From Bifidobacterium pluvialisilvae (GTDB lineage: Bacteria; Actinomycetota; Actinomycetes; Actinomycetales; Bifidobacteriaceae), in the NCBI RefSeq assembly GCF_019331695.1, contig NZ_JAHBBI010000002.1, positions 186,001-250,000 on the forward strand: 64,000 nt of DNA. The letters are read 5' to 3'. Positions 22,918 through 40,613 of the stretch are shown here, piece by piece. Made by a program: the position numbers and the translations under genes. Below the pieces are notes generated by a model, which made no database searches, had not been told where the DNA came from, and was given only the letters and a program-made list of their open reading frames with translations. Position 1 is the stretch's first letter, and each line of letters begins with the position of its first letter.

Positions 22918-22923
22918 TCTGAT

Positions 22924-23075
22924 GGAGTGTCATCGGCGTTGCAGGAGGCTCGACGTACCATCTGTACGCCTTCGCCTCCTGCGCCTTGATGACACACACA
23001 TCAGACGGAGCGTCTTCGGCGAGATGGAAGACTCGACGTACTGTTGTACGCCTTCGCCTTCCACCGCACCGAATC
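22924..23075. repeat. Two copies of the GTACGTCGAG palindromic repeat
   Basis: The first copy (about 22924-22993) has GCAGGAGGCTCGACGTAC and TGTACGCCTTCGCCTCCTGC arms inside GAGTGTCATC/GATGACAC ends. The second (about 23002-23075) keeps CTCGACGTACTGTTGTACGC and CGTCTTCGGCGAGATGG. Further copies lie at 24778-24855 and 40511-40613. Confidence 0.8.
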
Positions 23076-23126
23076 CGCACTCGTCAGGACGGAGCGTCTT
23101 CGGCGAGATGGGACGTATGTCCCTTG

Positions 23127-24764: not shown

Positions 24765-24870
24765 TAAAAACTGAATAACGGAGCGTTATCGGCATTGTGG
24801 AGGAATCGACGTACTTTTGTACGCCTTCATCCTCCACAACACCGATACCGCACACGTTATTCAGTTTTTA
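24765..24870 (+). repeat. Long inverted repeat after araA containing a GTACGTCGAG-type core
   Basis: TAAAAACTGAATAACG (24765-24780) is a perfect 16-bp match to the complement of 24855-24870. Inside lies the third copy of the GTACGTCGAG family (GTGGAGGAATCGACGTAC and TGTACGCCTTCATCCTCCAC). It starts immediately after the araA stop codon. Confidence 0.8.
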
Positions 24871-25070: not shown

Positions 25071-25364
25071 GTATCCATGCCGGCGGATTTCGGCACGTCA
25101 ACGATGACGACCGAACAAACATCATGTGACGATTCGGTGAAAACGGGGGATTTCATCGCATCTTCAGACGGCAGCAACCGCAATCGCACAGCGTTGGACA
25201 GGGGAGTGGTGCATCATTCCCGAGGGCATGTCAGGGGGTTCATTCCAGAGGGGGAATACGTCTAGCTTGGTTCATTGAACTATATCCACGGATATTCACT
25301 TATTTCGCATGCCGCGCATTGAAGAGGCAACCACGATGCGGTGCATGCGCGAGGGGAGAATGAA

Positions 25365-27929
25365 ATGAGTCCATTGCGTAAGCATGCCGGGAAGACCGGT
25401 CTGCGCGGCATGGTCAAGGCGGCCGTGGCGGCTGTCGTATCCGTCGCCACCTTCGGCACCCTGGCCATCGCCGGCGCCGGCGTCGCCTCGGCCACCGAGA
25501 CCACGGCCGCACTGCCGCAGCCTGAAAGCTCCAAGACCGTCACCCGCAACAACGACGGCACCTACACCATGAAGCTGAGCGTCACCGGCAAGACCGCCGA
25601 GGACAGCGTCACCAAGACCACGCCGACCGACATCGTGCTCGTCGTCGACAAGTCCAACAGCATGGAGGGCAACCGCTTCAACACCGCCAAGAACGCCGCC
25701 ACCGGTCTGGCGAACAAGCTGCTCACCGCTGACAACGCCAAGTCCGGCACCGTGCGCATGTCCGTCGTGACGTTCGCCTCGCGTGCCAATCAGGCGACCT
25801 CCTGGACCACCGATGCGAATGCCGTGAACCGTGCCATTGGCAACGGTCCCGATGGTGAGAGCCAGGACGGCGGCACCAACTGGGACGACGCCCTCGAGAA
25901 GGCCAACGCCCGGACCACTGACCGCGATTCCGCCAAGTACATCGTGTTCCTCTCCGATGGCCAGCCCACCTACCGTAATGGTCGCAGTTGCACTGGCTGG
26001 GGGTGGCATGAGCAGTGCTCCGACATCTCCGGCACTGGGCACGACGACAACGACGGTAAGAACTTCGAGGCCGCCGTCGCCGAGGCCAACAAGCGCGGCA
26101 ACGCCGAGCTCTACTCGGTGAGCGCCGCCCCCGAGGCCAATGCTCGGATGAGCGAGTTTGCCAGGGAGACCCACGGCACCTTCTTTGACGGCAGCGACTC
26201 CACCAAGCTCAACGACGCGTTCAACAGCATCTACGAGAAGATCACCACCTCCGCCGCCTACCGCAACGTCGTCATCACTGACGCGCTCTCCGAGTATGTG
26301 ACCTTCGCCGACGGCACTCCGCAGTTCACCGCCACCAAGGATGGCAAGCCGTGGGCCGAAGCCCCGACGCCCGCCGTCGACGGCAAGACCATCACCTGGA
26401 ACCTCGGCGATTCCAAGCTCGACCCGGTCAAGTACGAGATCTCCGTGAAGCTCAAGCCCACCCAGGCCGCCTACGACCAGGCCGTCAAGAACGGCAAGGA
26501 ATCCACGCTGCCGTCCAACGACGACGCCACCGTGAGCTACGACGTCGTCACCACGGTCAACGGCAAGGAGACCGTGAACCACGGCACTCCGGTCACGCTG
26601 CTCCACGGCAACATCACCGTGCCCGTCTCCAAGGTCACCATCAAGAAGGTCTGGGAGGGGAACGGCCCGAAGTCCGACGTGACCGTCGAACTCGACAAGG
26701 ACGGCGCGAAGTACGCTGACGTCACGCTGACCGAACAGGACGGCTGGACCAAGGACGTCATCGTCCCCGCCGGACTCGACGCCTACACGTGGAGCGTCAA
26801 GGAACCGACCCCCGGCGACGGCTACACCGTCGCCATCTCCGGCGACAACGACAAGAAGTTCGCTGTCGGCACGGCCGACTCCGGCACCATCACCGTGACC
26901 AACACCTACGAGGCCAAGCCCGCGACCCTCAGCGGCAAGGACTACCTCAAGGGCACCAAGACGTTCACCGGCCGTGAGGGCGACAAGTGGCTCGACACCG
27001 ACAAGTTCGCCTTCACCCTCGCCGCCAACGATGACGCCACTGCCGCGGCCATCAAGGCCGACGACGTGACGCTGCCCAAGGACACCACCGTGACCGTCGA
27101 CGGCAAGACCCCGGACCACGCCTTCAGCTTCGGCGATGTCACCTTCGCCAAGGCCGGCGACTACTCGTTCAAGATCAGCGAGACCAAGGGCGACATCCCC
27201 GGCGTCACCTACGACGCCCACGCCTACGTGGTCAACGTGACGGTCACCGACAACGGCAAGGGCCAGCTCGAAGCCGTCGCCAAGCCCGGCGACGCCAGCA
27301 ACGAGTTCAAGAACACGTACGCCGTCTCCGGCGACGTGACCTCCGACCCGCTCACCGCCAAGAAGACCCTCGCCGGCACCAAGCTCGCCGACGGCCAGTT
27401 CTCCTTCACCGCCGCCTCCGACGACGCCGACGCCCCGAAGTTCCAGCAGCCCACGGCGAAGAACGACGCCGACGGCAAGGTGAGCTTCGGCACCGTCACG
27501 TTCGACAAGGCCGGCACGTACGTCTACAAGGTGGCCGAGACCAACGACGCCCAGAAGAACGTCAAGTACGACGACACCACCTACACCGTCACGTACACCG
27601 TGGCCGACGACACCAAGGGCGGACTGACCATCACGAAGACCGCCATCGAGAAGACCTCGGCCGACGGCACGAAGACCCCGGCCGACGCCATCGCGTTCGT
27701 CAACCACACCTCGATTCCGGCCACGCCGCTCACCCCGGCCAAGCCCGTCGAGAAGCCGCAGCCGAACAAGCCCACCACCCCGACCGAGAAGCCGCAGGTC
27801 CAGCAGCAGAACCAGACCGCCCCGGCCAAGCAGCTCAGCCGCACGGGCGCCGCGGTCGCCGGCATCGCCGCACTGGCCATCGTGGCCGCCGGCGCCGGTG
27901 TGATCGCCATCCGTCGCCGCCGCGCATGA
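25365..27929 (+). CDS. Cell-wall-anchored VWA pilin-like adhesin
   Basis: 854 residues, secreted. A signal peptide (1 to about 43, ending GVASA) is followed by a von Willebrand A domain (about 88-310) with a perfect DxSxS MIDAS, DKSNS at 95-99. Next comes a Cna_B-like domain (about 420-515, KVTIKKVWEGNGPKSDVTVE), two Spy0128/FctA-like isopeptide domains (about 525-650 and 655-775), a Pro/Gln/Lys linker, and a sorting signal LSRTG at 824-828 with a helix and RRRRA tail. This is the layout of tip or major pilins in Gram-positive sortase pili. ATG 25365 follows GAGGGGAG. No second pilin or sortase gene accompanies it here, so it may act alone or use a sortase elsewhere. The ligand is unknown. 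Confidence 0.9.
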   Translation: MSPLRKHAGKTGLRGMVKAAVAAVVSVATFGTLAIAGAGVASATETTAALPQPESSKTVTRNNDGTYTMKLSVTGKTAEDSVTKTTPTDIVLVVDKSNSMEGNRFNTAKNAATGLANKLLTADNAKSGTVRMSVVTFASRANQATSWTTDANAVNRAIGNGPDGESQDGGTNWDDALEKANARTTDRDSAKYIVFLSDGQPTYRNGRSCTGWGWHEQCSDISGTGHDDNDGKNFEAAVAEANKRGNAELYSVSAAPEANARMSEFARETHGTFFDGSDSTKLNDAFNSIYEKITTSAAYRNVVITDALSEYVTFADGTPQFTATKDGKPWAEAPTPAVDGKTITWNLGDSKLDPVKYEISVKLKPTQAAYDQAVKNGKESTLPSNDDATVSYDVVTTVNGKETVNHGTPVTLLHGNITVPVSKVTIKKVWEGNGPKSDVTVELDKDGAKYADVTLTEQDGWTKDVIVPAGLDAYTWSVKEPTPGDGYTVAISGDNDKKFAVGTADSGTITVTNTYEAKPATLSGKDYLKGTKTFTGREGDKWLDTDKFAFTLAANDDATAAAIKADDVTLPKDTTVTVDGKTPDHAFSFGDVTFAKAGDYSFKISETKGDIPGVTYDAHAYVVNVTVTDNGKGQLEAVAKPGDASNEFKNTYAVSGDVTSDPLTAKKTLAGTKLADGQFSFTAASDDADAPKFQQPTAKNDADGKVSFGTVTFDKAGTYVYKVAETNDAQKNVKYDDTTYTVTYTVADDTKGGLTITKTAIEKTSADGTKTPADAIAFVNHTSIPATPLTPAKPVEKPQPNKPTTPTEKPQVQQQNQTAPAKQLSRTGAAVAGIAALAIVAAGAGVIAIRRRRA

Positions 27930-28017
27930 GTATGAGTCCTCATGCGTGACCGGCGGATGCGCGGTCCATACTGGCCGGCAGTCCGCTGACCGGCGGTCCG
28001 ACCGCAATCCGGAAGAA

Positions 28018-28060
28018 GCCGGGGAGCCTCCATCATGTGCATGATGGACGGCTCCCCGGC
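28018..28060 (+). terminator. Hairpin after the VWA adhesin gene
   Basis: GCCGGGGAGCC (28018-28028) pairs with GGCTCCCCGGC (28050-28060). The stem continues with CCATCAT/ATGATGG after a mismatch. A very stable stem, with only a short TTCC after it. The rest of 27930-28475 has no supportable gene; CAATAT at about 28321 may be a -10 for the next cluster. Confidence 0.75.
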
Positions 28061-28475
28061 TTCCTGCGTTCATGGGGCCCATCACGTATGGCGACGGATG
28101 CGCCGACACATCCGCGACCTCGGCATATCGACGATGTCGTGACGAATAACTTTTTGTGAAGCTCTTATGAAGACGTGGATTCAGCCAACGTCAATGAAAC
28201 ATCAAGTTTCCAATCGCCCCATCCGGTACGGGGTGCATGTCGCCAATCCCCGGGGGTGGGGTTGGGGTGCTTTGCCCCGATGGAACGGCCGGGTAGATTC
28301 ATGACCAGAGGGGTTTCAAAAACAATATTCGTCATCGTTCGCCATCGCACATGTCATGCGGGGAAGCGCCCGCCGCGACATCGATGCGCGAGAGGGGGAG
28401 GCGCAGCATGAGCGTACGGCATGTTCGGGTCCGAGGGAAGGACCGATTCACCACGGCCGGAGTCGGAGGCGACCG

Positions 28476-30278
28476 ATGAGACGGTTCTACAGAATCCCGC
28501 AGCTGGAGAAGATAAGCAACCTGCGCGACGCCGTCAACTATGCGAAGCGGAAGTACTCCAGCAGGATCGCCTACCGACAGATCGAGACGCCGGTGTACGA
28601 AAGCGCCATCACCTTCCGAGGATTCGCCGGCAACATCGACGCGCTCGGCACCGCGCTCATGCATCTGCCCGCCCCGTTCAACGGGTCGGAGCGCAGCCGC
28701 GGGGACTCCCTAGCCCAGACGCATATCGCCTTCATCGGAGGCACCTCCATCGAATGGATCACCGGGTTCCTCGCCACGATGAACGGCGTGGGATGCGCCG
28801 TGCCCATCGACCGTCTGCTCGACCCGGACACCATGGTCGAACAGCTGGACTTCGCCGACGTCGACGCCATCTTCTGCGAGGGATCGTTCCTCGCCAAACT
28901 CGAACCGCTGCTCGCCAGACTGCCCCGGGTGCGGGCCGTCATCGTGATGCGCGGCACCGGGCCGACGGTCGACCTGCTCAAGCGCCTCGCCGCGCAGGAC
29001 ACCGGCCGCGACTACTACGCCTACACGGAACTGGTGAAGCATGGCCGCGGACTGCTGCGCGCACACGACGTCTCCTTCACCGAAGCCCCCATCGACGCCG
29101 ACGCGATGAGCCTGCTCGTGTTCACCTCCGGCACCACGGGCGCGAACAAGGGCGTGATGCTCTGCCACCGCAACATCGTCACGGTGATGAAGGGCGCCCG
29201 GCAGCTCGTCACCTACCGCAGGACGAACCTGTCGGTGCTGCCCATCAACCACACCTACGAGCTGGTGTGCAACATCATCTGCTCCATCTGGGAGGGCACC
29301 ACGGTGGCCATCAACGACGACCTGCGGCACGTGGCCCGCAACCTCGAGCATTTCGGCCCCGAGATGTCGAGCATGGTGCCCATGATGCTCGATCTGCTCG
29401 TACGCAAGATCACCATAGAAGCCAAGAGGAACGGCCTGTGGGGCCACCTCCAGTACGGCATGAAGGTCAGCGGGCTGCTGCGCGCCGTCGGCATCGACCG
29501 TCGCCGCAAGTTCTTCAAACCCGTGCTGCAGGGCCTTGGCGGCAACTTCTCCATGGTCATCTGCGGCGGCGCCCCGCTGGACCATCACACCGAATCCTTC
29601 CTCGACAGCATCGGCGTCACCGTGAAAAACGGCTACGGCATCACCGAATGCGCGCCCCTGGTGGCCACGACCGGCGACCACTTCCGCCGGGCCGGTTCGG
29701 TCGGACACGTCATCCCGAACATCGAGGTGCGCGCCGCGAACCAGGACGAGAAGGGCGACGGGGAGATCCAGGTGAAGGGCGACAACGTGATGCTCGGCTA
29801 CTACAAGATGCCCGAGGACACGGCCGCGGTCTTCACCGACGACGGATGGCTGCGTACCGGCGACCTCGGCCACATCGACAAGGACGGCTACGTGTTCCTC
29901 ACCGGCCGCCTCAAGAACCTCATCATCCTTGCCAACGGCAAGAACGTGAGCCCCGAGGACATCGAGGACCATCTCATGCACGACATCTCCTACGTGCGGG
30001 AATCCGTGGTCTACGCCGACGAGGCGGGCACCGGCATCTATGCCGTGTGCTTCCTCGACGACGACGAATGCGACCGGCTCGGACTGGGCGACGAACGATC
30101 CCGCCACGACAGGCTTATGCAGGACGTCCGCGAGTTCAACAAGACCGTGCCGTCATACAAACGCATCAACGACGTGACGATCTCCGACCACGAGTTCGAG
30201 AAGACCACGACCCAGAAGATCCGTCGTTTCAAGGTGATCGAAAGCGTGCGGAAACGCAAGGCCGGCACGTCGGACTGA
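28476..30278 (+). CDS. Stand-alone adenylate-forming enzyme (acyl/aminoacyl-AMP ligase)
   Basis: A 600-residue ANL-superfamily enzyme expected to activate a carboxylate with ATP. All core motifs are intact: FTSGTTGANKG (A3/P-loop) at 216-226, NGYGITE (A5) at 385-391, GWLRTGDLG (A7) at 457-465, GRLKNLIILANGKNVSPEDI (A8) at 477-496, and the C-terminal lysine in TTTQKIRRF (K581). It resembles long-chain acyl-CoA/acyl-ACP synthetases more than amino-acid-specific NRPS domains. The carrier protein 38 bp downstream suggests the acyl group is loaded onto that ACP rather than CoA. ATG 28476 follows GGAGG. It is first in a tightly spaced run that includes a condensation-domain protein and PPTase. The substrate is unknown. 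Confidence 0.88.
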   Translation: MRRFYRIPQLEKISNLRDAVNYAKRKYSSRIAYRQIETPVYESAITFRGFAGNIDALGTALMHLPAPFNGSERSRGDSLAQTHIAFIGGTSIEWITGFLATMNGVGCAVPIDRLLDPDTMVEQLDFADVDAIFCEGSFLAKLEPLLARLPRVRAVIVMRGTGPTVDLLKRLAAQDTGRDYYAYTELVKHGRGLLRAHDVSFTEAPIDADAMSLLVFTSGTTGANKGVMLCHRNIVTVMKGARQLVTYRRTNLSVLPINHTYELVCNIICSIWEGTTVAINDDLRHVARNLEHFGPEMSSMVPMMLDLLVRKITIEAKRNGLWGHLQYGMKVSGLLRAVGIDRRRKFFKPVLQGLGGNFSMVICGGAPLDHHTESFLDSIGVTVKNGYGITECAPLVATTGDHFRRAGSVGHVIPNIEVRAANQDEKGDGEIQVKGDNVMLGYYKMPEDTAAVFTDDGWLRTGDLGHIDKDGYVFLTGRLKNLIILANGKNVSPEDIEDHLMHDISYVRESVVYADEAGTGIYAVCFLDDDECDRLGLGDERSRHDRLMQDVREFNKTVPSYKRINDVTISDHEFEKTTTQKIRRFKVIESVRKRKAGTSD

Positions 30279-30316
30279 CGACGTGCCGGGAACGACAACG
30301 AAGGGAGCATAAGACG

Positions 30317-30541
30317 ATGTTCGAAAAAGTACGGACCATGCTGTTGGAATACGTGGACGTCGATCCGACGACGATCACTCCGGAGACGGAGTTCCTCAAG
30401 GACCTCAAGGTCACGTCATACGACATCCTGACGATGATCGGCGAACTGGAGGACGAATTCGGCATCAGCATCAGCGACGACGACCTCAAGGACATGGTCA
30501 CCGTGGGGGACCTCGCGCAGTACCTGTCCGACAACACCTGA
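30317..30541 (+). CDS. Acyl/peptidyl carrier protein
   Basis: A 74-residue acidic four-helix carrier, too small to be anything else convincingly. The phosphopantetheine attachment serine is S34 in LKVTSYDILTMIGELEDEFG, where TSYDI replaces the classic DSL, a variant seen in dedicated carrier proteins. The acidic recognition helix ELEDEFGISISDDD follows. It is distinct from the housekeeping AcpP type, and its neighbours (AMP-ligase upstream, PPTase and condensation domain downstream) point to a dedicated thiotemplate role. The ATG at 30317 follows AAGGGAG. Confidence 0.9.
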   Translation: MFEKVRTMLLEYVDVDPTTITPETEFLKDLKVTSYDILTMIGELEDEFGISISDDDLKDMVTVGDLAQYLSDNT

Positions 30542-30596
30542 TCGCCGGGCCGACGGGACGGCCGCATCGACGACGACGCAACGAACGAGGAAGACC

Positions 30597-31565
30597 ATGA
30601 TGAGGGAAAACACGGATGATTCAACCACGGAAGTGAACAGCCTGAGCGTGTTCGCACAGCCCGACGGCGAAGGCGACGGCCACGTCGCGGACGGTCGCGG
30701 AGAAGGCGCACGGGGCGCGAAGGCGAAGGCGCGGCACCGTGCCGGCCGGTCACGTCGCGTGGCGTCGACGGTCCCGCTGCCGCCCGCTCCTGGGGCCCGG
30801 ACCGCGGCCGTGGTCCCCTCCGCATCCACCGATGCGGCGGACGACACCGTGCGGAAGAACGGCCACGCCTTCATCGAATTCGACGACGTGGTCAAGGACT
30901 ACACGATGGGCGAGACCCGGATCCAGGCGCTCGACGGCGTGAACTTCACCATCGACGACGGCGAATTCGTCATCATCGTCGGCGCCAGCGGCGCCGGAAA
31001 AAGCACCATCCTCAACATCCTCGGCGGCATGGACACCCTCACCAGCGGCGAGGTGTTCGTCGACGGCAACGAGGTGAGCTCATACAACGACCGCCAGCTC
31101 ATCCTCTACCGTCGGTACGACGTGGGCTTCGTGTTCCAGTTCTACAACCTCGTGCAGAACCTCACCGCCCGTGAGAACGTGGAGCTCGCCACCCAGGTGA
31201 GCCGCGACCCGCTCGACATCGATGAGGTCCTCGACGCGGTCGGGCTCTCCGACCGCAAGGACAACTTCCCCTCGCAGCTCTCCGGCGGCGAACAGCAGCG
31301 CGTGGCCATTGCACGCGCCCTGGCCAAGAACCCCAAATTGCTGCTGTGCGACGAGCCGACCGGCGCGCTCGACTACAACACCGGCAAGCAGGTGCTCAAA
31401 CTCCTGCAGGACTACGCGCGCGACAGCCACATGACGGTCATCATCATCACCCACAACTATGCGCTCACCGACATCGGAGACAAGGTGATCCACGTGAAAA
31501 GCGGCAAGGTGGAGTCCATATCGCTCAACGCGCACCCCAAGAACATCGCGGATGTGGAGTGGTAG
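30597..31565 (+). CDS. ABC transporter ATP-binding protein (MacB/LolD type) with basic N-terminal extension
   Basis: 322 residues. The ATPase core (about 91-320) has Walker A GASGAGKS at 129-136, the Q-loop in FVFQFYNL, signature LSGGEQQR at 228-235, Walker B LLLCDEP at 248-254 and the switch His in IIITHNYAL. It belongs to the group that pairs with FtsX/MacB-like permeases and drives mechanotransmission or export rather than import. The first 90 residues are unusual: Gly/Arg/Ala-rich, low complexity, probably disordered. The ATG at 30597 (or 30600) lies near a purine-rich AACGAGGAAG. The cognate permease begins 6 bp downstream. Confidence 0.9.
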
Positions 31566-31571
31566 ACCATC

Positions 31572-34500
31572 ATGACCAAGGCACTGTTGCTCGACTTCTG
31601 GCGCGAGATACGGCATTCGGCGAACAGGTTCTTCTCCATCCTGTGCATCGTCGCGATCGGCGTCGGCTTCTTCGCCGGACTGAAATCCTCCGCGCCCGAC
31701 ATGCGCCACACGATGGACGACTACTTCGACAGCGGCAACGTCGAGGACATCGACGTGCTGTCGTCGCTGGGACTCACCGGCAAGGACATCGACGCCATCC
31801 GGGGCGCGGACGGGGTCGAGGCGGTGCAGCCCGGATACTTCACCGACGCCCTGGCCAAGGAGAACGGCAGCCAGCTGGTGTTCCGCATCCACAGCCTCCC
31901 CGAGGGGACCGACCCCAACAGGGTCACGGTCGTCGCCGGACGCATGCCGCGCACCGCGAACGAGGTCGTCATCGAGGACAGCGCCAACTACGGCAAGTCG
32001 CTGAAGATCGGCGACAGGATCACCTTCGAATCCGGAACCGACAAGAAAATCACGGACGGCACGCTGACCGGTGACACCTTCACCATCGTGGGACGCGCCA
32101 TCACCCCCTACTATCTGACCGTCGAAAAGGGAACGTCCCGCATCTCGGGCAAGTCGCTCAACCTGTTCGCCTACGTGCCAGCCTCCGCGTTCTCCGTCAA
32201 GGACGAGAACGGCAACCCCATGTACACGCAGGCGTCCGTCACCGTCAAGGGAGCCAAGGGCCTCAACGCGTTCGGCAAGGACTACGAGCGTCTCGTGGAC
32301 AAGGCGAAGGACTCCCTGACCAACATCGGATCGGACCGCGCGCGCGAACGCGGCAGCGAACTGCGGTCCACGGCCCTGAAGAAGCTGCAGAAGGCGCAGG
32401 CCGAATACGACAAGCGCAAGAAGGAATACGACAAGCAGATAGCCGACGCCGAAGACAAGCTCAGCGACGCCAACGCGCAGCTCGCCAGCGGCGGTGCGAA
32501 GCTGGACGGCGAGAAGGAGAACTACCAGCTGCGCAAACAGAACGGCGAGCAGCAGATCCAAAGCGGCCAGCAGCAGCTCGACCAGGCGCAGCAGCAGATC
32601 CAGGAAGGCGAGCAGAAGGTCCAGGCCGGCCAGCAGATCTACGACAGCCTCAAACAGCAGTACGACTCCATGAACGAGCAGGTCTCCCAGGCGCTCGCGA
32701 TGATGAAATGGCTGCAGCAGGCCACCGACACGGTCAGCGGCAACCTCAAGGACTTCAACGGCCAGCTTGACAAGGTGCCGCAGAGCCAGCGGGCGCAATA
32801 CCAGTCGATGCTCGACTCGTACCAGACGTTCCTCGACCAGCTCTCCTCCCAGAAGGAATCCCTCGATAAGATGGTCAGCCAGGTGGAGACGCTGCAGCAG
32901 ACCATCTCCGACGCCTTCGACTCCGCGGACACCCAGCTGCAGAACGGCAAGGACCAGCTCGCCGCGGCCAAGCGGCAGTACAACCAGGGCGTGGCCCAGC
33001 TCGAGGCCGCCAAGAGGAAGCTCAACGAGGCGGACGGCGAGGCCAAGCGTCAGTTCGACGCGGCGCAGAGCAAACTCGACAAGGGCAAGAAGGACTACGC
33101 GAAGAACAAGGCCGACTTCGAAAGCAAGAAGCAGGACGGCGCTGCGCGCCTCGACGACGCCAAGGCGAAGCTGATCGGCGCGAAATACGAGATAGACAAC
33201 ATCGACAACCCGCACTGGTACGTGCTGGACCGCAGCACGAACGCCGGATTCCTGAGCTACCGGAACACCGTGGACCGCGTGGACGCGCTCGCGCAGGTGA
33301 TTCCCGTGTTCTTCATCCTCGTGGCCGTGCTGGTGTGCATGACCACCATGGCGCGCATGGTCAACGAGCAGCGCGGCGTCATCGGCACCTACAAGGCGCT
33401 CGGCTACGAGAACAACGCCATCGCGCTCAAATACGTGCTCTACGTGGTCGCCGCAAGCGCCCTGGGCGGCGTCATCGGCGCGGCCGTGGGCTCATGGACC
33501 TTCCCCGAATCCGTGTATAAGGCATGGTCGGCCATGTACCGGCAGCCCCCGTTGGAGCACGGGTTCCATCCCGGCATCATGGCGTCGAGCTTCGCCGTCA
33601 CCGTGATCGCCATGGCGCTGGTCTCCTACCTGACCTGCCGCAAGGAGCTGAACAGCCAGGCGGCGACGCTCATGCGTCCGAAGGCGCCCCGCGTCGGCAA
33701 GCGCATCCTCCTGGAACGCATCCCCGTCATCTGGAAGCATCTCAACTTCTCGCAGAAGGTGACGATGCGCAACCTGTTCCGCTACAAGCGGCGCCTCATC
33801 ATGACCGTCGTCGGCATCATGGGATGCACCGGCCTGCTGGTCGCCGGCCTGGGCATGAACGACACCATCGGTTCGGTGGTGTCCAAACAGTACGACAAGG
33901 TGTTCGCCTACGACATGTCGGTCACCCTCGACCCGACCGCCGACAAGGCGGAGACCGACGCCGTGTACCACACGCTCGATATCGCCGACTCGGTCTCGTC
34001 GTACACGCAGGCCGGCGTCGGCAGCGCCACGATCAGCGAAGGCGGCACCAGCGAGACGCTGGCGCTGTACGCCGCCAACACCCCCGACTCGTTCACCGAC
34101 TACATCCGCCTCGACGACCCATCGAACGGACGGCCCATCGCGCTGGACGACTCCGGCATCGTGCTCACGGAGAAGCTCGCCAGGAACCTCGGAGTCACCG
34201 CGGGCGACACCGTGTCCGTACGCAACGAGGGCGGCATGACCAAGCGCATCCCCGTGACCGGCGTCACCGAGAACTACGTGTTCCACTACGCGTACATGAG
34301 CCAGAAGGCGTATGCGAAATACTTCCTCAAGGACATGGACACGAACACGCTGCTCGTGAAGCTGCACGACAACGTAAGCGCCCGTCAGGAGGATTCGCTG
34401 CAGCGCGTGCTGCAGAGCGTCCCCTCGGTCACGTCGGTGACGTCCTACACCAAGGTCGCCGACGACTTCCGCAACCAGATCAAGGCGATGAACAGCATCG

Positions 34501-34889
34501 TGCTGCTCATCATCGTCTGCGCGGCGCTGCTGGCCTTCGTGGTGCTCTACAACCTCACCAACATCAACGTCTCGGAACGCATACGCGAGATCGCCACCAT
34601 CAAGGTGCTCGGCTTCAAACGGGGCGAGGTGGCCATGTACATCTACCGCGAGAACTTCCTGCTCACGCTCATCGGCGCCGTGTTCGGCCTGCTCATCGGC
34701 AGCGCCCTGCACCGCGTGATCATGCAGGCCATCGAACAGAAGGACATCACGTTCGGATACGTGATATCCCCATGGAGCTACATATGGTCGTTCCTGCTGA
34801 CCGCGCTGTTCTCCATCATCGTGATGCTTGCCATGTATCCGAAGCTCATACGCATCCCGATGGTCGAATCGCTCAAGTCGGTGGAATAG
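31572..34889 (+). CDS. Very large FtsX/MacB-like ABC permease with extracellular coiled coil
   Basis: 1105 residues. One N-terminal helix (about 17-38) is followed by a MacB-type periplasmic-core-like region (about 50-235). Next comes an unusually long Gln/Lys/Asp-rich coiled coil (about 245-550; heptad-like ADAEDKLSDANAQLASGG and many QQLDQAQQQIQ-type repeats). Then three helices of a first FtsX domain (about 575-690), a second extracytoplasmic region (about 750-950), and a second FtsX domain with three helices (about 975-1095) ending PMVESLKSVE. Sequence and position make it the partner of the preceding ATPase. The coiled coil could span the wall or contact the surface protein encoded downstream; this is inference. 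Substrate unknown. Confidence 0.88.
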   Translation: MTKALLLDFWREIRHSANRFFSILCIVAIGVGFFAGLKSSAPDMRHTMDDYFDSGNVEDIDVLSSLGLTGKDIDAIRGADGVEAVQPGYFTDALAKENGSQLVFRIHSLPEGTDPNRVTVVAGRMPRTANEVVIEDSANYGKSLKIGDRITFESGTDKKITDGTLTGDTFTIVGRAITPYYLTVEKGTSRISGKSLNLFAYVPASAFSVKDENGNPMYTQASVTVKGAKGLNAFGKDYERLVDKAKDSLTNIGSDRARERGSELRSTALKKLQKAQAEYDKRKKEYDKQIADAEDKLSDANAQLASGGAKLDGEKENYQLRKQNGEQQIQSGQQQLDQAQQQIQEGEQKVQAGQQIYDSLKQQYDSMNEQVSQALAMMKWLQQATDTVSGNLKDFNGQLDKVPQSQRAQYQSMLDSYQTFLDQLSSQKESLDKMVSQVETLQQTISDAFDSADTQLQNGKDQLAAAKRQYNQGVAQLEAAKRKLNEADGEAKRQFDAAQSKLDKGKKDYAKNKADFESKKQDGAARLDDAKAKLIGAKYEIDNIDNPHWYVLDRSTNAGFLSYRNTVDRVDALAQVIPVFFILVAVLVCMTTMARMVNEQRGVIGTYKALGYENNAIALKYVLYVVAASALGGVIGAAVGSWTFPESVYKAWSAMYRQPPLEHGFHPGIMASSFAVTVIAMALVSYLTCRKELNSQAATLMRPKAPRVGKRILLERIPVIWKHLNFSQKVTMRNLFRYKRRLIMTVVGIMGCTGLLVAGLGMNDTIGSVVSKQYDKVFAYDMSVTLDPTADKAETDAVYHTLDIADSVSSYTQAGVGSATISEGGTSETLALYAANTPDSFTDYIRLDDPSNGRPIALDDSGIVLTEKLARNLGVTAGDTVSVRNEGGMTKRIPVTGVTENYVFHYAYMSQKAYAKYFLKDMDTNTLLVKLHDNVSARQEDSLQRVLQSVPSVTSVTSYTKVADDFRNQIKAMNSIVLLIIVCAALLAFVVLYNLTNINVSERIREIATIKVLGFKRGEVAMYIYRENFLLTLIGAVFGLLIGSALHRVIMQAIEQKDITFGYVISPWSYIWSFLLTALFSIIVMLAMYPKLIRIPMVESLKSVE

Positions 34890-34905
34890 AGGAAGGGGAA
34901 AAACC

Positions 34906-36379
34906 ATGGCAGAGAAATTCAGCATCGACGACGTGGCCAGGAAGGTTGGGGACAAGGTCTGCTATCCGCTGACCCAATCCCAGAAGCTGATGTTCTACAA
35001 CCTCAAGTTCAGCTTCCGCAAGCAGATCGTCAATATCTGCAGCCTCGTCGACCTGTACGAGAGGCTCGACGAGGGTCGGCTCATGCAGGCCGTATACCTG
35101 GCGATGATGCGCATCCCCTCCAACTCCGTGCGCGTCCACATCGTCGACAAGCAGCCGATGCAGTACTTCGCCACTGACGTGCCGCACGACATCGAACTCG
35201 TCGACATGAGTGACAGGACGCAGAAGCAGGTGGAGGCCGCATGCAACGAGATCGGCTCCAAGCCGTTCCCCAACGGCGGCAACGACGTGCAGCTGTACCG
35301 CGTGCGCATCATCCGGCGCGCGCACGGACTGCACAGCCTGTACTTCTGCGTAAGCCACGTCGTATTCGACGCCTACTCCCTCATGACCTGCCTCACCTAC
35401 ATATTCGCCGTCTACCGCGCCCTCGAACAGGGCACGCCCCTCCCCGAGGAGCCGCACTCGCCGCTGCCCGCCTACGAGGACGACTTCGCCATGCGGCGCT
35501 CCGACCGGTACCGCCGCCAGCAGCAGTGGTGGAAGGACCACTACACCACCGAACCGCAGTTCACGTCCATCAACGGCCGGGGAGGCAAAGGAGTTCATCA
35601 AGGACAAGCGCTTCGGCGTCACCCTGCGCCTGTGGCAGACCAAGGGCGGCATGACCGACTACCGGATAGACACCGCCACGGTGCAGGCCATGCAACGGTT
35701 CTGCGAGTCGCGGCACATGCCGATGCAGATACCGTACTTCATGGCGCTGCGCACCTATCTGGGCATGGTGAGCGGCACCGACGACGTGATGTTCATGAAC
35801 GCCGTGGCACGCCGCGCCACCCTCAACCAGAAGCGCGCCGGCGGCACCATGGTCAACGCCGTCCCCCTGCACACCGTCATCCCCACGGAGACGACCCTTG
35901 ATGACGCCTGCGACATCCTCTTCCGCGAACAGATGGACGCCTACCGTCGCGCCAACGTGGCGACCGCCGAAATCCTCGACGACGCACTGCGCGCCAAATT
36001 CCATCTCAAGCCCTGCCGCGGATACGTCAGCGTGAGCACCACGTTCCAGCCGTACTTCGCCGACGGCGGCGACCTGCCTCGGTTCCGGTTCCGGCGCCTG
36101 CCCAACGGGGCCAACACCATGCCGCTGTACGTGAGCATCATGCCGCTCGACCAAAGCGGCGACCTGTGGGTGAACTACGAATACATCGTCGGCTACGTGG
36201 ACCCGGTGAACATCCGCAAGTTCCACCGGTTCCTGCTGGCGTTCCTCGCCGAAATCGACCATGACCCCGACCGCACCATCGGCGAGCTGCGCGACGCGGC
36301 GCGCGCGGGCGCCGCCGGCATGCGCATCGAGACCCCCGACGACATGCCCGACCCGGCGACGGAGACGGACGCATCATGA
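34906..36379 (+). pseudogene. NRPS condensation-domain-like acyltransferase, split by a +1 frameshift
   Basis: The frame beginning ATG 34906 (after GGAAGGGG) encodes a CAT-like fold start with PLTQSQKLMFYNL and the condensation active-site equivalent SHVVFDAYS (H151, D155; canonical HHxxxDG). It runs off frame near 35580. The other frame picks up at EFIKDKRFGVTLRLW and continues to 36379 with PYFMALRTYLG, VNAVPLHTVIP and NYEYIVGYVD, matching the C-terminal half of condensation domains. Deleting one G from GGGG at 35579-35582 gives a single 490-residue protein of normal C-domain length (1473 nt, divisible by 3). It may be a sequencing error, a recent inactivation or a slippage switch. The stop overlaps the PPTase start by ATGA. 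Confidence 0.8.
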
Positions 36380-37017
36380 ACGTCGTCGTCCAGCAGGTGC
36401 AGTGCCGCGCGGGGGAGAACACCCGCGAATACGAGCGGATGCTGTCCGCCCGCGCGCACCGCATCGCCGAACGCCTGGCACGCCGCCTGTGCGGGGCATG
36501 GACGATAATCCGCCACGAGGCCTCGGGGCGTCCGGTCGTCGTCGATGCGCACACACGCCGGACGATGCCCGGATGGTCGGTGAGCATATCCCACACCGAA
36601 GGCCTGGTCGCCTGTGCCATGAGCGCGGCCCCCATCGGCATCGACGTCGAAGGGGTCCGGTTCCCGACGGCGGGCGTGCTCCGGCATTGCTTCTCCGCCG
36701 ACGAACGGGCGAGCATCCGCGCATCAGACACCCGGCGGGCCAGCGAGTACGCATCCGGACTGTGGACGCTCAAGGAGGCGTACGGCAAACTCATCGGACT
36801 CGGCCTGCGCGACCTCGCCCTCATACGCGCCTGCAACCCGGCGTTCTGCCGGGACCGCGGACTCGAAGTATGCCAGATGACGCTCCGAAGCCACGGACGA
36901 CGATACCGATGCTCCATCGTCCACGGCACCGCCGCATCCCGTCACGCACAACACGCAACAACGGCGCATAGCACCTATCAATCATCGGAAGACACTACAG
37001 AAGGAGAGCAACAATGA
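36376..37017 (+). CDS. 4'-phosphopantetheinyl transferase (Sfp-like)
   Basis: 213 residues. It transfers phosphopantetheine from CoA to a carrier-protein serine. Seen: SVSISHTEGLVACAMS (substrate-binding strand with the conserved SHT/SHS) at about 68-83; GIDVEGV with the Mg-binding Asp and Glu at 88-94; FSADERASI; and LWTLKEAYGKLIGLGL, the WxxKEAxxK signature, at about 129-144. It starts inside the stop of the condensation gene (ATGA) and its own stop overlaps the next start (ATGA), so translation is coupled on both sides. The natural target is the carrier protein at 30317. The C-terminal 40 residues are polar and look disordered. Confidence 0.92.
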   Translation: MNVVVQQVQCRAGENTREYERMLSARAHRIAERLARRLCGAWTIIRHEASGRPVVVDAHTRRTMPGWSVSISHTEGLVACAMSAAPIGIDVEGVRFPTAGVLRHCFSADERASIRASDTRRASEYASGLWTLKEAYGKLIGLGLRDLALIRACNPAFCRDRGLEVCQMTLRSHGRRYRCSIVHGTAASRHAQHATTAHSTYQSSEDTTEGEQQ

Positions 37018-38183
37018 ACAAGTGGAGCAGGATAGTCATCGGATCGGTGGCGGCGTTCGCCATGCTCGTGCCGAACGGCGCGGCGCTCGCCGACACGACG
37101 GACGGCAACGAACAGCCCGCCGACAACGCCGGATCCTCATGGTTCCTCGACCTGTCGCAGTGGTTCGGCGGATTCTCCGATTCCACCAACCAGCAGAAGG
37201 CCGACGGCAACGGCGACGCCGCGAAAGACGGCGCCGCGAAGGACGAAGCGGCCAAGAACGACTCCGCCAAGGACGATGCCGCCGACGAAAGCGGCAAGTC
37301 GGCGTCGACCACGAACACCCAGACCTACGGAAGCACCGACGGCGCCGCGTCATCCGTCACCGGACCAGCCAGCAGCCAGGAACGCGCGATGCTCAACCAG
37401 GAGATCGCCAACGCCGAGAAAGTCGACCTGAGCAAATACAAGGACGACGGCCAGAAGACGTTCTTCCAGCAGAGCCTCGAGAACGCGAAGCGGACCGCCG
37501 AGGACAAGAATGCCACATCAGTGGCCGTGATCACCGCATACTACGTGCTCAAGCAGGCGTCCACCGGCCTCACCCCGAAGGACGACAGCTCGCAGGGCAC
37601 CGATCCCGGCACCAAGCCCAGCGACCCGAACACCAAGGAATTCGCCTACACGTTCATCGTCAACGACCCGAAGGACGGCCACCGGCTTTCCAGCGAGACC
37701 CGTGAATTCGAGGAAGGGCAGCAGGTCAACGTGCCGGTCCACACCAAGCTGGCGGCGCCCCTCGGCTACAACATTACCGGCTGGACCGACGCCGCGGGCA
37801 AGACCTACGACGCCGACCTGACCGGTCTGAAGGCCACCGCCGACACCACACTCACCGCGACGCTCAAGAAGGACGGCCTCAACATCGACATCCACGACAT
37901 CAACCCGCAGTGGAACGGCGGCCTGAACTTCCCCGGCTTCGGCACGAACGGGCAGAAGACCCCGTCCAAGCTGAACGCCAACAAGACGGCCACCCCGGCC
38001 AGCACCGGCACCGGCCAGCAGACCAAGTCCGACAAGAACGGCGGGCAGCAGCTCGCCACCACCGGCGCGGCCATCTCGGCGATCGTCGTGGCGGCGGTAG
38101 TGCTCGCCATCGCGGCAATCGCCCTGATCCTGCACCGCCGCAAGGCCATCGCCGACGACATCGCCGCCGGCGACGAACGATGA
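37014..38183 (+). CDS. Secreted, sortase-anchored surface protein of the thiotemplate cluster
   Basis: 389 residues. Signal peptide 1 to about 26 (ends AALA), then a Trp/Gly segment WFLDLSQWFGGFS, a Lys/Asp/Ala-rich disordered region, and a small helical segment (about 120-190). A beta domain (about 205-290) with GYNITGWTDAAGKTYD resembles Listeria-Bacteroides (Flg_new) repeats. LATTG at about 347-351 is followed by a hydrophobic helix and HRRKA, a sorting signal. A surface protein translationally coupled (ATGA) to a PPTase is odd. It may be a receptor, carrier or substrate for the product of the cluster. AGAAGGAGAG precedes the start. I recognise no specific family. Confidence 0.82.
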   Translation: MNKWSRIVIGSVAAFAMLVPNGAALADTTDGNEQPADNAGSSWFLDLSQWFGGFSDSTNQQKADGNGDAAKDGAAKDEAAKNDSAKDDAADESGKSASTTNTQTYGSTDGAASSVTGPASSQERAMLNQEIANAEKVDLSKYKDDGQKTFFQQSLENAKRTAEDKNATSVAVITAYYVLKQASTGLTPKDDSSQGTDPGTKPSDPNTKEFAYTFIVNDPKDGHRLSSETREFEEGQQVNVPVHTKLAAPLGYNITGWTDAAGKTYDADLTGLKATADTTLTATLKKDGLNIDIHDINPQWNGGLNFPGFGTNGQKTPSKLNANKTATPASTGTGQQTKSDKNGGQQLATTGAAISAIVVAAVVLAIAAIALILHRRKAIADDIAAGDER

Positions 38184-38220
38184 CGGCGCACACCGAACAC
38201 GACATCGCAAGGAGCATGAC

Positions 38221-39045
38221 ATGAAGAAGCCATTCGAGGGAAGGTTCGACGGCAAGGTGATGATCATCACCGGCGCCGCCCTGGGCATCGGCGAGGCCAC
38301 CGCCCTGCGCGCCGCGCAGGAGGGGGCGAGCCTCGTGCTCGTCGACAAGCTCGAGGAGGAGGGGCAGGACATCCTGCGCCGAGTCCGCGACCTCGGGGCA
38401 CAGGCCGTGTTCCTGCACGGCGACGTCTCCGAGGAGGAGACCTGCAAGGCGATGGTGGAACTGGCCGTGAAGACGTTCGGCCGGCTCGACATCGCCATCA
38501 ACAACGCAGGCATCATGGGACAGCCGGGCAGAATCGTCGACGTCACCAAGGAGCAGCTCGACCACACCATGGCCAACAACTTCTACTCGGTGTTCTTCAG
38601 CTGCAAGTACGAGGTCATCGAGTTCCTCAAGGAGGAGCACGGCGGATCCATCGTCAACGTCGCCTCGATCGCCGGTCTGACCGGCCTGCCCGGCAACCTG
38701 CCGTACAGCGCATCGAAGCACGCGGTCAACGGCCTGACGAAGAACGTGGCCATCGACTACGCGCGCAAGGGCATCAGGGTCAACTCCGTCAATCCCGCCG
38801 GCACGACGACGCCCCTGACGAAGGCCGCGTACGAATACGTCAAACGCCACTACGAGCAGGCCATCGCCGCCGGCATGGACCCGAAGGAGGCGAAGTCCAT
38901 GGCCGGTCTCAAGACGCGTTCCCTGCTCGAGCGCGAGGCGCAGCCGGACGAGCAGGCGTCGGCGATTCTGTTCCTCGCCTCCGACGACGCTTCGTTCTTC
39001 ACCGCGGCGACCATAGCGCCGGACGGAGGGTGGACGTCGTTCTGA
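38221..39045 (+). CDS. Short-chain dehydrogenase/reductase
   Basis: A 274-residue classical SDR: TGAALGIG (residues 18-25) binds NAD(P), NNAG lies near 92, the catalytic Ser is in VNVASIAGLTG, YSASK (Y162, K166) is the active-site pair, and the C-terminal LFLASDDASFFTAATIAPDGG is typical. It follows the surface-protein gene by 37 bp in the same direction with AAGGAGCATGAC before the ATG, so it is probably the last gene of the cluster. It could reduce a carrier-bound or released product, but many SDRs are generic sugar or alcohol dehydrogenases, so the substrate is open. Confidence 0.88.
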   Translation: MKKPFEGRFDGKVMIITGAALGIGEATALRAAQEGASLVLVDKLEEEGQDILRRVRDLGAQAVFLHGDVSEEETCKAMVELAVKTFGRLDIAINNAGIMGQPGRIVDVTKEQLDHTMANNFYSVFFSCKYEVIEFLKEEHGGSIVNVASIAGLTGLPGNLPYSASKHAVNGLTKNVAIDYARKGIRVNSVNPAGTTTPLTKAAYEYVKRHYEQAIAAGMDPKEAKSMAGLKTRSLLEREAQPDEQASAILFLASDDASFFTAATIAPDGGWTSF

Positions 39046-39052
39046 CGTCCAC
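39030..39052 (+). terminator. Hairpin overlapping the SDR stop codon
   Basis: GTGGACGTC (39030-39038) pairs with GACGTCCAC (39044-39052) around GTTCT. A CGCGG/CCGCG stem follows. It probably marks the end of the cluster transcript, though no clear T-run follows. Confidence 0.55.
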
Positions 39053-39259
39053 GCATCCGCGGCGAGTCCGCGGCCGGCATCGTCCGGCACCGGCGGGCCT
39101 TCGTCTTCCCGTGCCGATTCCACGGCGCGAAAGGGGCGGGGCCCGTCGGCATGCCGGCATCCATCTCCGATGACGGACGGTGACTTCGACCGTGATTTCG
39201 CCTACAATGTGCACTACAACACCGTCGCAACGGCGGCGGTCGACGACGGGGGAATCATC

Positions 39260-40235: not shown

Positions 40236-40498
40236 GGTTTGTGGGTCTATAGGTTCGTGGGGAAGGCAAAGTGGGTCTATCAGAACGTAAAAATGGTGAA
40301 GTGGGTCTATCGGTTCGTGAGGAAGGGATTTTCGGCGTCCTCACGTATGGTCTAGACCCACAAACCGATAAATGAACGGTTAGACCCACGGTTATTGAAT
40401 AGTGTGGACCCACAAATCCGATTACGGATGGAATAGACCCACGATTATCGAACGGTTAGACCCACAAACCCTTATCAGTGAACGATTCGACCCACAAA
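40236..40498. repeat. GTGGGTC/GACCCAC array with core (locus 2)
   Basis: Forward GTGGGTCTAT units start at 40241, 40271 and 40301, exactly 30 bp apart. The core GATTTTCGGCGTCCTCACGT lies at 40328-40347. Inverted GACCCAC units start at 40356, 40384, 40408, 40437, 40460 and 40490. It lies after the 5'-nucleotidase gene, and the gap 40208-40618 contains no gene. Confidence 0.88.
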
Positions 40499-40510
40499 TC
40501 CAACACAAGC

Positions 40511-40613
40511 GGGGTTGTCGTGATGCGTGTGGCTTCAAGGCGTGGAGGGCGAAGGCGTACAACGGTACGTCGAGCCCTCCACAACGCCGAAGACACTCCA
40601 TCATGACAACCCC
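40511..40613. repeat. GTACGTCGAG palindromic repeat (fourth copy), possible bidirectional terminator
   Basis: GGGGTTGTC...GACAACCCC closes a long stem whose tip is GTGGAGGGCGAAGGCGTAC/GTACGTCGAGCCCTCCAC. It lies 6 bp from the fadD-like stop codon and between convergent genes. Confidence 0.8.

Follow-up and report, generated by a model that had tools for sequence, protein, structure and literature searches.

A Bifidobacterium gene block joining a putative acyl ligase, carrier and condensation line to an ABC exporter and a sortase-anchored protein

Genes of the block

We have analysed a stretch of 64,000 nucleotides from Bifidobacterium pluvialisilvae (contig NZ_JAHBBI010000002.1 of assembly GCF_019331695.1, positions 186,001 to 250,000), called the window below, which belongs to a draft genome of 2.66 Mb in 21 contigs. 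The window holds a block of eight genes, all on the + strand, at 28476..39045. An earlier sequence-only reading had described them as eight co-directional genes with two ATGA overlaps, coding for an adenylation enzyme, a carrier protein, an ABC ATPase, a permease, a condensation protein, a phosphopantetheinyl transferase, a sortase-anchored protein and a dehydrogenase. This description was largely confirmed: the Pfam families AMP-binding, PP-binding, ABC_tran, FtsX with MacB_PCD, Condensation, ACPS and SDR were all matched, the coordinates are the same, and the overlaps lie at 36376-36379 and 37014-37017. Scans for promoters and terminators gave nothing above shuffled sequences (2 promoter-like sites against 1.7 in the shuffles, and 6 terminator-like sites against 8.7).

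The first gene (28476..30278, 600 aa) codes for a predicted stand-alone acyl-AMP ligase with matches to PF00501 (7.8e-50) and PF23562 (2.1e-06) and with the motifs TSGTTG and TTQKI; in a comparison of family models it ranks with acyl-CoA ligases. There is an alternative in-frame ATG upstream, at 28356, and residue 1 of the 28476 start aligns with the first codon of the open reading frames (ORFs) of Bifidobacterium tissieri and Bifidobacterium vansinderenii, whose ligases are 79-81% identical to this one. The free-standing carrier that follows (30317..30541, 74 aa) matches PF00550 at 7.4e-13, has the predicted attachment serine Ser34, and is 90-92% identical in the same two species. Its nearest families are the acyl carrier proteins, at scores under the NCBIfam cut-offs. 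No other protein of the genome matched PF00550; the search gave matches in 11 of 14 control genomes, and its model does not see the carrier of a type I synthase, should there be one.

The next two genes encode a putative exporter. The ABC ATPase (30597..31565; PF00005, 2.6e-35) is of the MacB/LolD class and carries about 85 additional, poorly conserved residues at its N-terminus. Its partner is an FtsX-type permease of 1105 aa (31572..34889) with two stretches matching PF02687 (2.1e-32) and a match to PF12704 (4.8e-16), so the pair has the MacB-like permease core and the ATPase that characterize MacB/LolCDE-type exporters. Sequence matches in the PDB are weak (MacB, 5gko, 5.4e-05). By hydropathy the permease has eight hydrophobic segments, with about 520 residues (about 43-566) in an outer loop for which a coiled coil is probable, the coil-type matches being under the curated cut-offs. 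The protein is 75% identical in B. vansinderenii and B. tissieri and at most 39% among the other matches listed. At E<=1e-30 its family is found in no fewer than 134 of the 189 Bifidobacteriaceae genomes (scoring stopped at four candidates per genome, so the count is a minimum), and because the family is so common, an FtsX-type permease is nothing special in itself. Long FtsX permeases (e.g. L094-L100 and L130-L139) often occur several to a genome in this family, and many of them have a long coil region.

Behind the condensation gene lie three more genes. The Sfp-type 4'-phosphopantetheinyl transferase (PPTase; 36376..37017, 213 aa) matches PF01648 at 6.8e-15, carries the motifs GIDVE and WTLKE, and is 43-49% identical in the two relatives. 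The sortase-anchored wall protein (37014..38183, 389 aa) has a signal-like N-terminus and the predicted LATTG sorting signal; it matched no Pfam family at 0.01 and is 34-44% identical to its counterparts in the two relatives over the aligned parts. The last gene codes for a short-chain dehydrogenase/reductase (SDR; 38221..39045, 274 aa; PF13561, 6.4e-58), 89% identical in both.

The condensation (C) protein needs a closer description. The sequence-only reading was right about its family and its SHxxxDA-type active site (found as SHVVFDA), and wrong in taking it for a single gene, since there is a change of frame inside it. The N-terminal half (34906..35577; PF00668, 8.1e-20) and the C-terminal half (35588..36379) lie in different reading frames. 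The frame opening at 34906 extends to 35901 (331 aa), while the family match covers only about its first 224 residues, and the remaining domain is found in another frame up to 36379, which places the change near 35.58-35.60 kb. The gene is uninterrupted in both relatives, with a single ORF of 512 aa in B. vansinderenii and of 531 aa in B. tissieri, and the two halves in the window are 73% and 72% identical to the B. vansinderenii protein. The excess of third-position substitutions, measured against L006, is 0.379 and 0.385 in the two halves, and the ligase, permease and SDR genes show a similar one. Because this excess is equal in both halves, the break is either recent or an error of sequencing or assembly. 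A programmed frameshift was also considered and is disfavoured, because the gene runs in one plain frame in both relatives.

Distribution and kinship

Are these eight genes a unit or a chance assembly? The N-terminal half of the C protein was found in three of nine genomes of the genus and in three of 189 genomes of the Bifidobacteriaceae, and the SDR in the same three (E<=1e-60), with no match at this threshold in the other 186. The two carriers besides the window genome are B. vansinderenii Tam10B (G008) and B. tissieri DSM 100201 (G007), both with an identical gene order. At the corresponding site of the six other genus genomes (18-19 kb around it, E<=1e-15) no block gene was found in any, the ligase query matching only the neighbouring acyl-CoA ligase; for the carrier, ABC, PPTase and wall-protein genes the absence applies to this site. 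All six sites without the block can be recognized by the acyl-CoA ligase neighbour together with araA and/or a VWA gene, and an orthologue of the block ligase was found in none of the six genomes, where the best match was 38% identical and of the housekeeping type. By this pattern of shared presence and absence, the eight genes are one unit. The sequence-only reading had named failure of the genes to co-occur elsewhere as the first thing that would count against it; they do co-occur, so this objection falls away, and the transporter, which it had counted as part of the system, recurs with the rest.

The nearest relatives of the C protein outside bifidobacteria are clostridial. When the B. vansinderenii protein was compared with PDB sequences by phmmer, the entry 12kh scored 104 bits and the next chain 37. 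The 12kh record is titled 'Condensation Domain Protein' and holds two chains of 465 aa, the aligned sequence containing a DHxxxDS motif. We take it for OaaC, an enzyme of the pathway to the clostridial fatty acid amides ('CTA'), since the motif, the length and the two chains fit the description in PMC13142362, although the record itself does not carry that name. A structure predicted for the B. vansinderenii C protein reached a mean pLDDT (predicted local distance difference test score) of 50.9 from an alignment of 5 rows. In a midpoint-rooted tree of 43 C proteins, drawn from matches that cover more than 300 positions of the model (E<=1e-10), with three duplicates dropped (L033 twice, L051), the bifidobacterial proteins group with clostridial L019, L027 (two proteins) and L063 at 99/99. 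This clade adjoins, from outside, the clade of 12kh and the CTA-type C proteins (94/86), and it stands apart from five rows of nonribosomal peptide synthetases (NRPSs) and other multidomain proteins. The ligases tell a similar story. In a tree of 41 rows, which retains two duplicate pairs (L051/L063 and L038/L064) and some truncated rows, the bifidobacterial enzymes and a few clostridial lineages of the C tree are grouped at 98/99 beside the CTA enzymes, the housekeeping acyl-CoA ligases being far off. By these trees the block is placed beside the CTA family and not inside it, with an exporter, a wall protein and an SDR added.

A scan of contigs returned three loci, the two in bifidobacteria and one in Horse_feces228 (G584), a metagenome-assembled genome (MAG) of the Clostridia from horse feces. 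One contig of this MAG (L087) carries a PPTase, a ligase, an ABC ATPase and the first part of a permease. A second (L028) carries the last part of a permease, a probable wall protein, a small transmembrane protein and the beginning of a C gene. On the third (L090), the final part of a C gene is followed by a carrier, a glycosyltransferase of the UDPGT/GT28 type and a protein of the major facilitator superfamily (MFS). The pieces of the C gene fit one gene cut by a gap, since one ends at model position 347 and the other begins at 362. The probable wall protein has Listeria-Bacteroides repeats and ends in SPKTG, a hydrophobic stretch and a charged end, which resembles an LPXTG signal. This cluster (L019/L028, L087, L090) thus shares with the block the PPTase, ligase, ABC ATPase, coiled-coil FtsX permease, probable wall-anchored protein, C protein and carrier. 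It differs in being split over three contigs, in having a glycosyltransferase, an MFS protein, hydrolase-like proteins and a small transmembrane protein in addition, in the absence of an SDR from its three contigs, and in a wall protein dissimilar in sequence. The ABC ATPase of the window scores 330 bits against that on L087 and 289-312 bits against the seven bifidobacterial paralogues compared.

A second clostridial cluster (L063, genome G1028) has the order MFS-ligase-carrier-C. The ligases of two clostridial clusters are 45-47% identical to that of the block. Profile searches in genomes around the MAG found relatives of the C protein in 5 of 394 (E<=1e-15), 52 of 300 (E<=1e-25) and 24 of 306 (E<=1e-40); the three samples overlap, and the matches include multidomain NRPSs. 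Where gene orders were counted in Clostridia, C-carrier-ligase occurred in 12 genomes and ligase-C-carrier in nine. Among 396 sampled genomes of Actinomycetota we found no close relative of the C protein beyond the genome of the window itself, the other five of the six matches at 1e-10 being 20-26% identical pieces of large multidomain frames. We also noted a 3.2 kb contig (L129 839-3110, G1514:C33) on which a C-protein frame of 497 aa has a match to the ABC ATPase next to it.

A putative acyl-conjugation line and its alternatives

The relatives of the block are best understood from the work on fatty acid amides (FAAs). The chemistry of OaaA, OaaACP and OaaC of Coprococcus eutactus has been reconstituted and the clostridial FAAs act on host G protein-coupled receptors (PMC13142362), while CTA-positive Blautia produce more acyl ethanolamines than CTA-negative ones (PMC13060934). 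Like the block, these FAA/CTA operons have a separate ligase, a separate acyl carrier protein and a stand-alone C protein (PMC13142362; PMC13060934); an HxxxDA-type motif occurs on both sides, though with a different residue ahead of it in the block, and their C proteins and ligases are the nearest characterised relatives of ours by sequence and tree. The order is reversed, with the carrier between ligase and C in both: C-carrier-ligase in PMC13060934 and ligase-carrier-[ABC-permease]-C in the block, which also differs in its exporter, wall protein and SDR and in its host, a member of the Actinomycetota. A methods passage of PMC13060934 reports no CTA homologs outside Clostridia at a 70% identity cut-off in two isolate libraries, and the bifidobacterial block would escape such a search. 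The word 'transporter' is absent from the main text of both papers. In the open-access literature, surveyed in part, no report of such a cluster in bifidobacteria came to light.

We consider it the probable reading, held with modest confidence, that the block encodes a line of acyl-AMP ligase, carrier and C protein which acylates a small molecule, by an amide-type bond, and which has an exporter of its own and a partner anchored in the wall. What the sequences show is the gene content, the kinship, the conserved catalytic motifs and the co-inheritance, while we infer all of the chemistry, the export and the presentation at the wall. The PPTase would arm the carrier at Ser34, and the ligase would activate a fatty acid with ATP, as the acyl-AMP, and load it onto the carrier. 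The stand-alone C protein would then pass the acyl chain on to some free small molecule. An amine is the likeliest acceptor and would give an amide, as in the clostridial CTA/OAA pathways; the alternative is a hydroxyl. The SDR may adjust the oxidation state of the acyl chain or the acceptor. The ABC/FtsX pair could export the lipid conjugate, its coiled-coil outer loop reaching into the wall, where the sortase-anchored protein may bind or present it. The sequence-only reading had already proposed activation by the ligase, loading of the carrier and transfer by the C protein, and this part of it is strengthened by the finding that the nearest relatives of both enzymes are those of clostridial FAA synthesis. 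Its further suggestion of a lipopeptide is not supported, because the carrier is the sole one matched, the only PF00668 matches in the genome are the two halves of the C gene, and the ligase is of acyl-CoA ligase rank. The C protein would share its acyl donor chemistry with the starter condensation domains of lipopeptide synthetases, the group nearest to which FAA C domains were placed (PMC13142362), but it stands alone, without a downstream NRPS module, and the block has neither the amino-acid adenylation domain nor the acceptor carrier domain of an NRPS lipopeptide cluster. Acylation of the LATTG protein itself, which had also been suggested, found no support either.

Several observations weigh against our reading. 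The C protein is only about 22-27% identical to the CTA-type proteins compared, and because of this the class of acceptor may differ. The first residue of SHVVFDA is Ser, where D/H is stated for the FAA family (PMC13142362), although His, Asp and Ala are kept and the final Ala is common there. The C tree gave long-branch warnings, among others for L063, L019 and L088, and L088 (G1028:C288) goes with the CTA proteins in that tree (94/86) but with the bifidobacterial ones when the ligases are compared (87/85). The grouping of the permease with that of the clostridial cluster is moderate, 86/83 in a tree of 21 rows as against 100/100 in one of 11 rows (we use the weaker figure), and the bifidobacterial paralogue L130 scores equally well, at 410 vs 409 bits. 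The three MAG contigs are presumed to be adjacent, the wall proteins of the two phyla gave no match to each other, and the glycosyltransferase of the clostridial cluster fits an ester or a glycolipid as well as an amide. Lastly, if the frame break is real, the line is probably idle in the genome of the window.

Could the C gene then be dead in this lineage and the cluster be decaying, which would leave just the transporter, wall protein and SDR with a possible role? We think this quite possible, if somewhat less than even, and it is compatible with an acyl-conjugation line, which would then apply to the relatives. The change of frame, set against one intact ORF in both relatives, speaks for decay; the equal third-position excess of the two halves means that it would be very recent at most, and in a draft of 21 contigs an error of one base could have the same appearance. 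A different product would follow if the C protein worked by O-acylation. Acting like a PapA-type acyltransferase, it would esterify a sugar or polyol and yield an exported glycolipid or acylated polyol. This is unlikely in our view, and yet it draws on the same clostridial neighbourhood, in which the glycosyltransferase and the MFS protein directly follow the carrier, and on the position of the bifidobacterial C proteins outside the clade of 12kh. The MAG has, moreover, two tandem C proteins, sisters in the tree (L027 1420-4302, G584:C5), which share their contig with a sugar-nucleotide-enzyme-like protein, read by eye as a UTP-glucose-1-phosphate uridylyltransferase. On the other hand, there is no glycosyltransferase among the eight genes of the block, and the nearest solved C protein is amide-forming if 12kh is OaaC (PMC13142362).

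It is more improbable still that a CTA-like triad was inserted beside a common permease, with the transporter, wall protein and SDR as passengers that have no link to it. The wide spread of the permease family (at least 134 of 189 Bifidobacteriaceae) would suit such an origin, as would the clostridial loci compared: outside the contigs of the MAG none gave a permease match, their flanks being mostly only about 1.5 kb long, and in three longer ones (L029, L030 and L128) the ABC ATPase was matched at some 3-8 kb from the triad and the permease was not. But the transporter genes sit between the carrier and the C gene, the same gene set recurs in the clostridial MAG, the SDR and the C protein occur in the same three of 189 genomes, and the block is missing together at its site. 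A ligase, a carrier and export to the surface are also a theme common to Dlt-like systems, so a D-alanylation-like modification or the decoration of lipoteichoic acid or lipoglycan was considered. We give this very little credence, since the ligase ranks with acyl-CoA ligases, the carrier is like acyl carrier proteins, and no match of the DltA or DltC type, to MBOAT or to DltD was found among the eight genes.

If the preferred reading of an amide-type acylation line is true, a related line in bifidobacteria would extend FAA chemistry to a second phylum of gut bacteria, and the linked exporter and wall protein would offer a clue to the route by which these lipids exit the cell. The block is open to test, since there are intact copies in B. 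vansinderenii and B. tissieri. We can also picture, more tentatively and with doubt outweighing belief, a separate type of acyl-conjugation system, shared across phyla, with a single unit for the making of a lipid signal, its export and its display at the wall. The carrier line would make a fatty acyl conjugate, a coiled-coil FtsX exporter would take it through the wall, and the sortase-anchored protein would display it or release it to the host.

The site of the block and its surroundings

Compared with the blockless genome G005 (L103), the block is an insertion at about 27930..39169 (no strand; the ends are approximate, being the breakpoints of DNA similarity). Similarity to L103 ends at window position 27920 and restarts at 39221, so that the flanks, which are 11.3 kb apart in the window, lie 158 bases apart in G005. 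In two other blockless genomes (G002 and G004) the 5'-nucleotidase and acyl-CoA ligase genes are separated by about 5 kb of different DNA, and the spot is therefore variable. Judged by the proteins of these two flanking genes, the window is nearer to blockless G002, G004 and G005 than to block-bearing G007 and, where comparable, G008. Because the flanks are closer to blockless genomes, this comparison leaves open whether the block was lost several times or exchanged between species.

Directly upstream of the block lies a gene for a sortase protein of the VWA/FctA pilin type (25341-27929), which is present at the site also in blockless G001, G004 and G005. On the other side, at 40241-40495 between the 5'-nucleotidase and acyl-CoA ligase genes, there is a run of GTGGGTCTA / TAGACCCAC units in tandem and inverted orientation. 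A palindromic element of about 90 bases was seen at 40511-40603, 22920-23003, 23004-23090 and 24780-24837, complete in one copy and partial or diverged in the other three, and stretches resembling it occur at the block site in some of the relatives.

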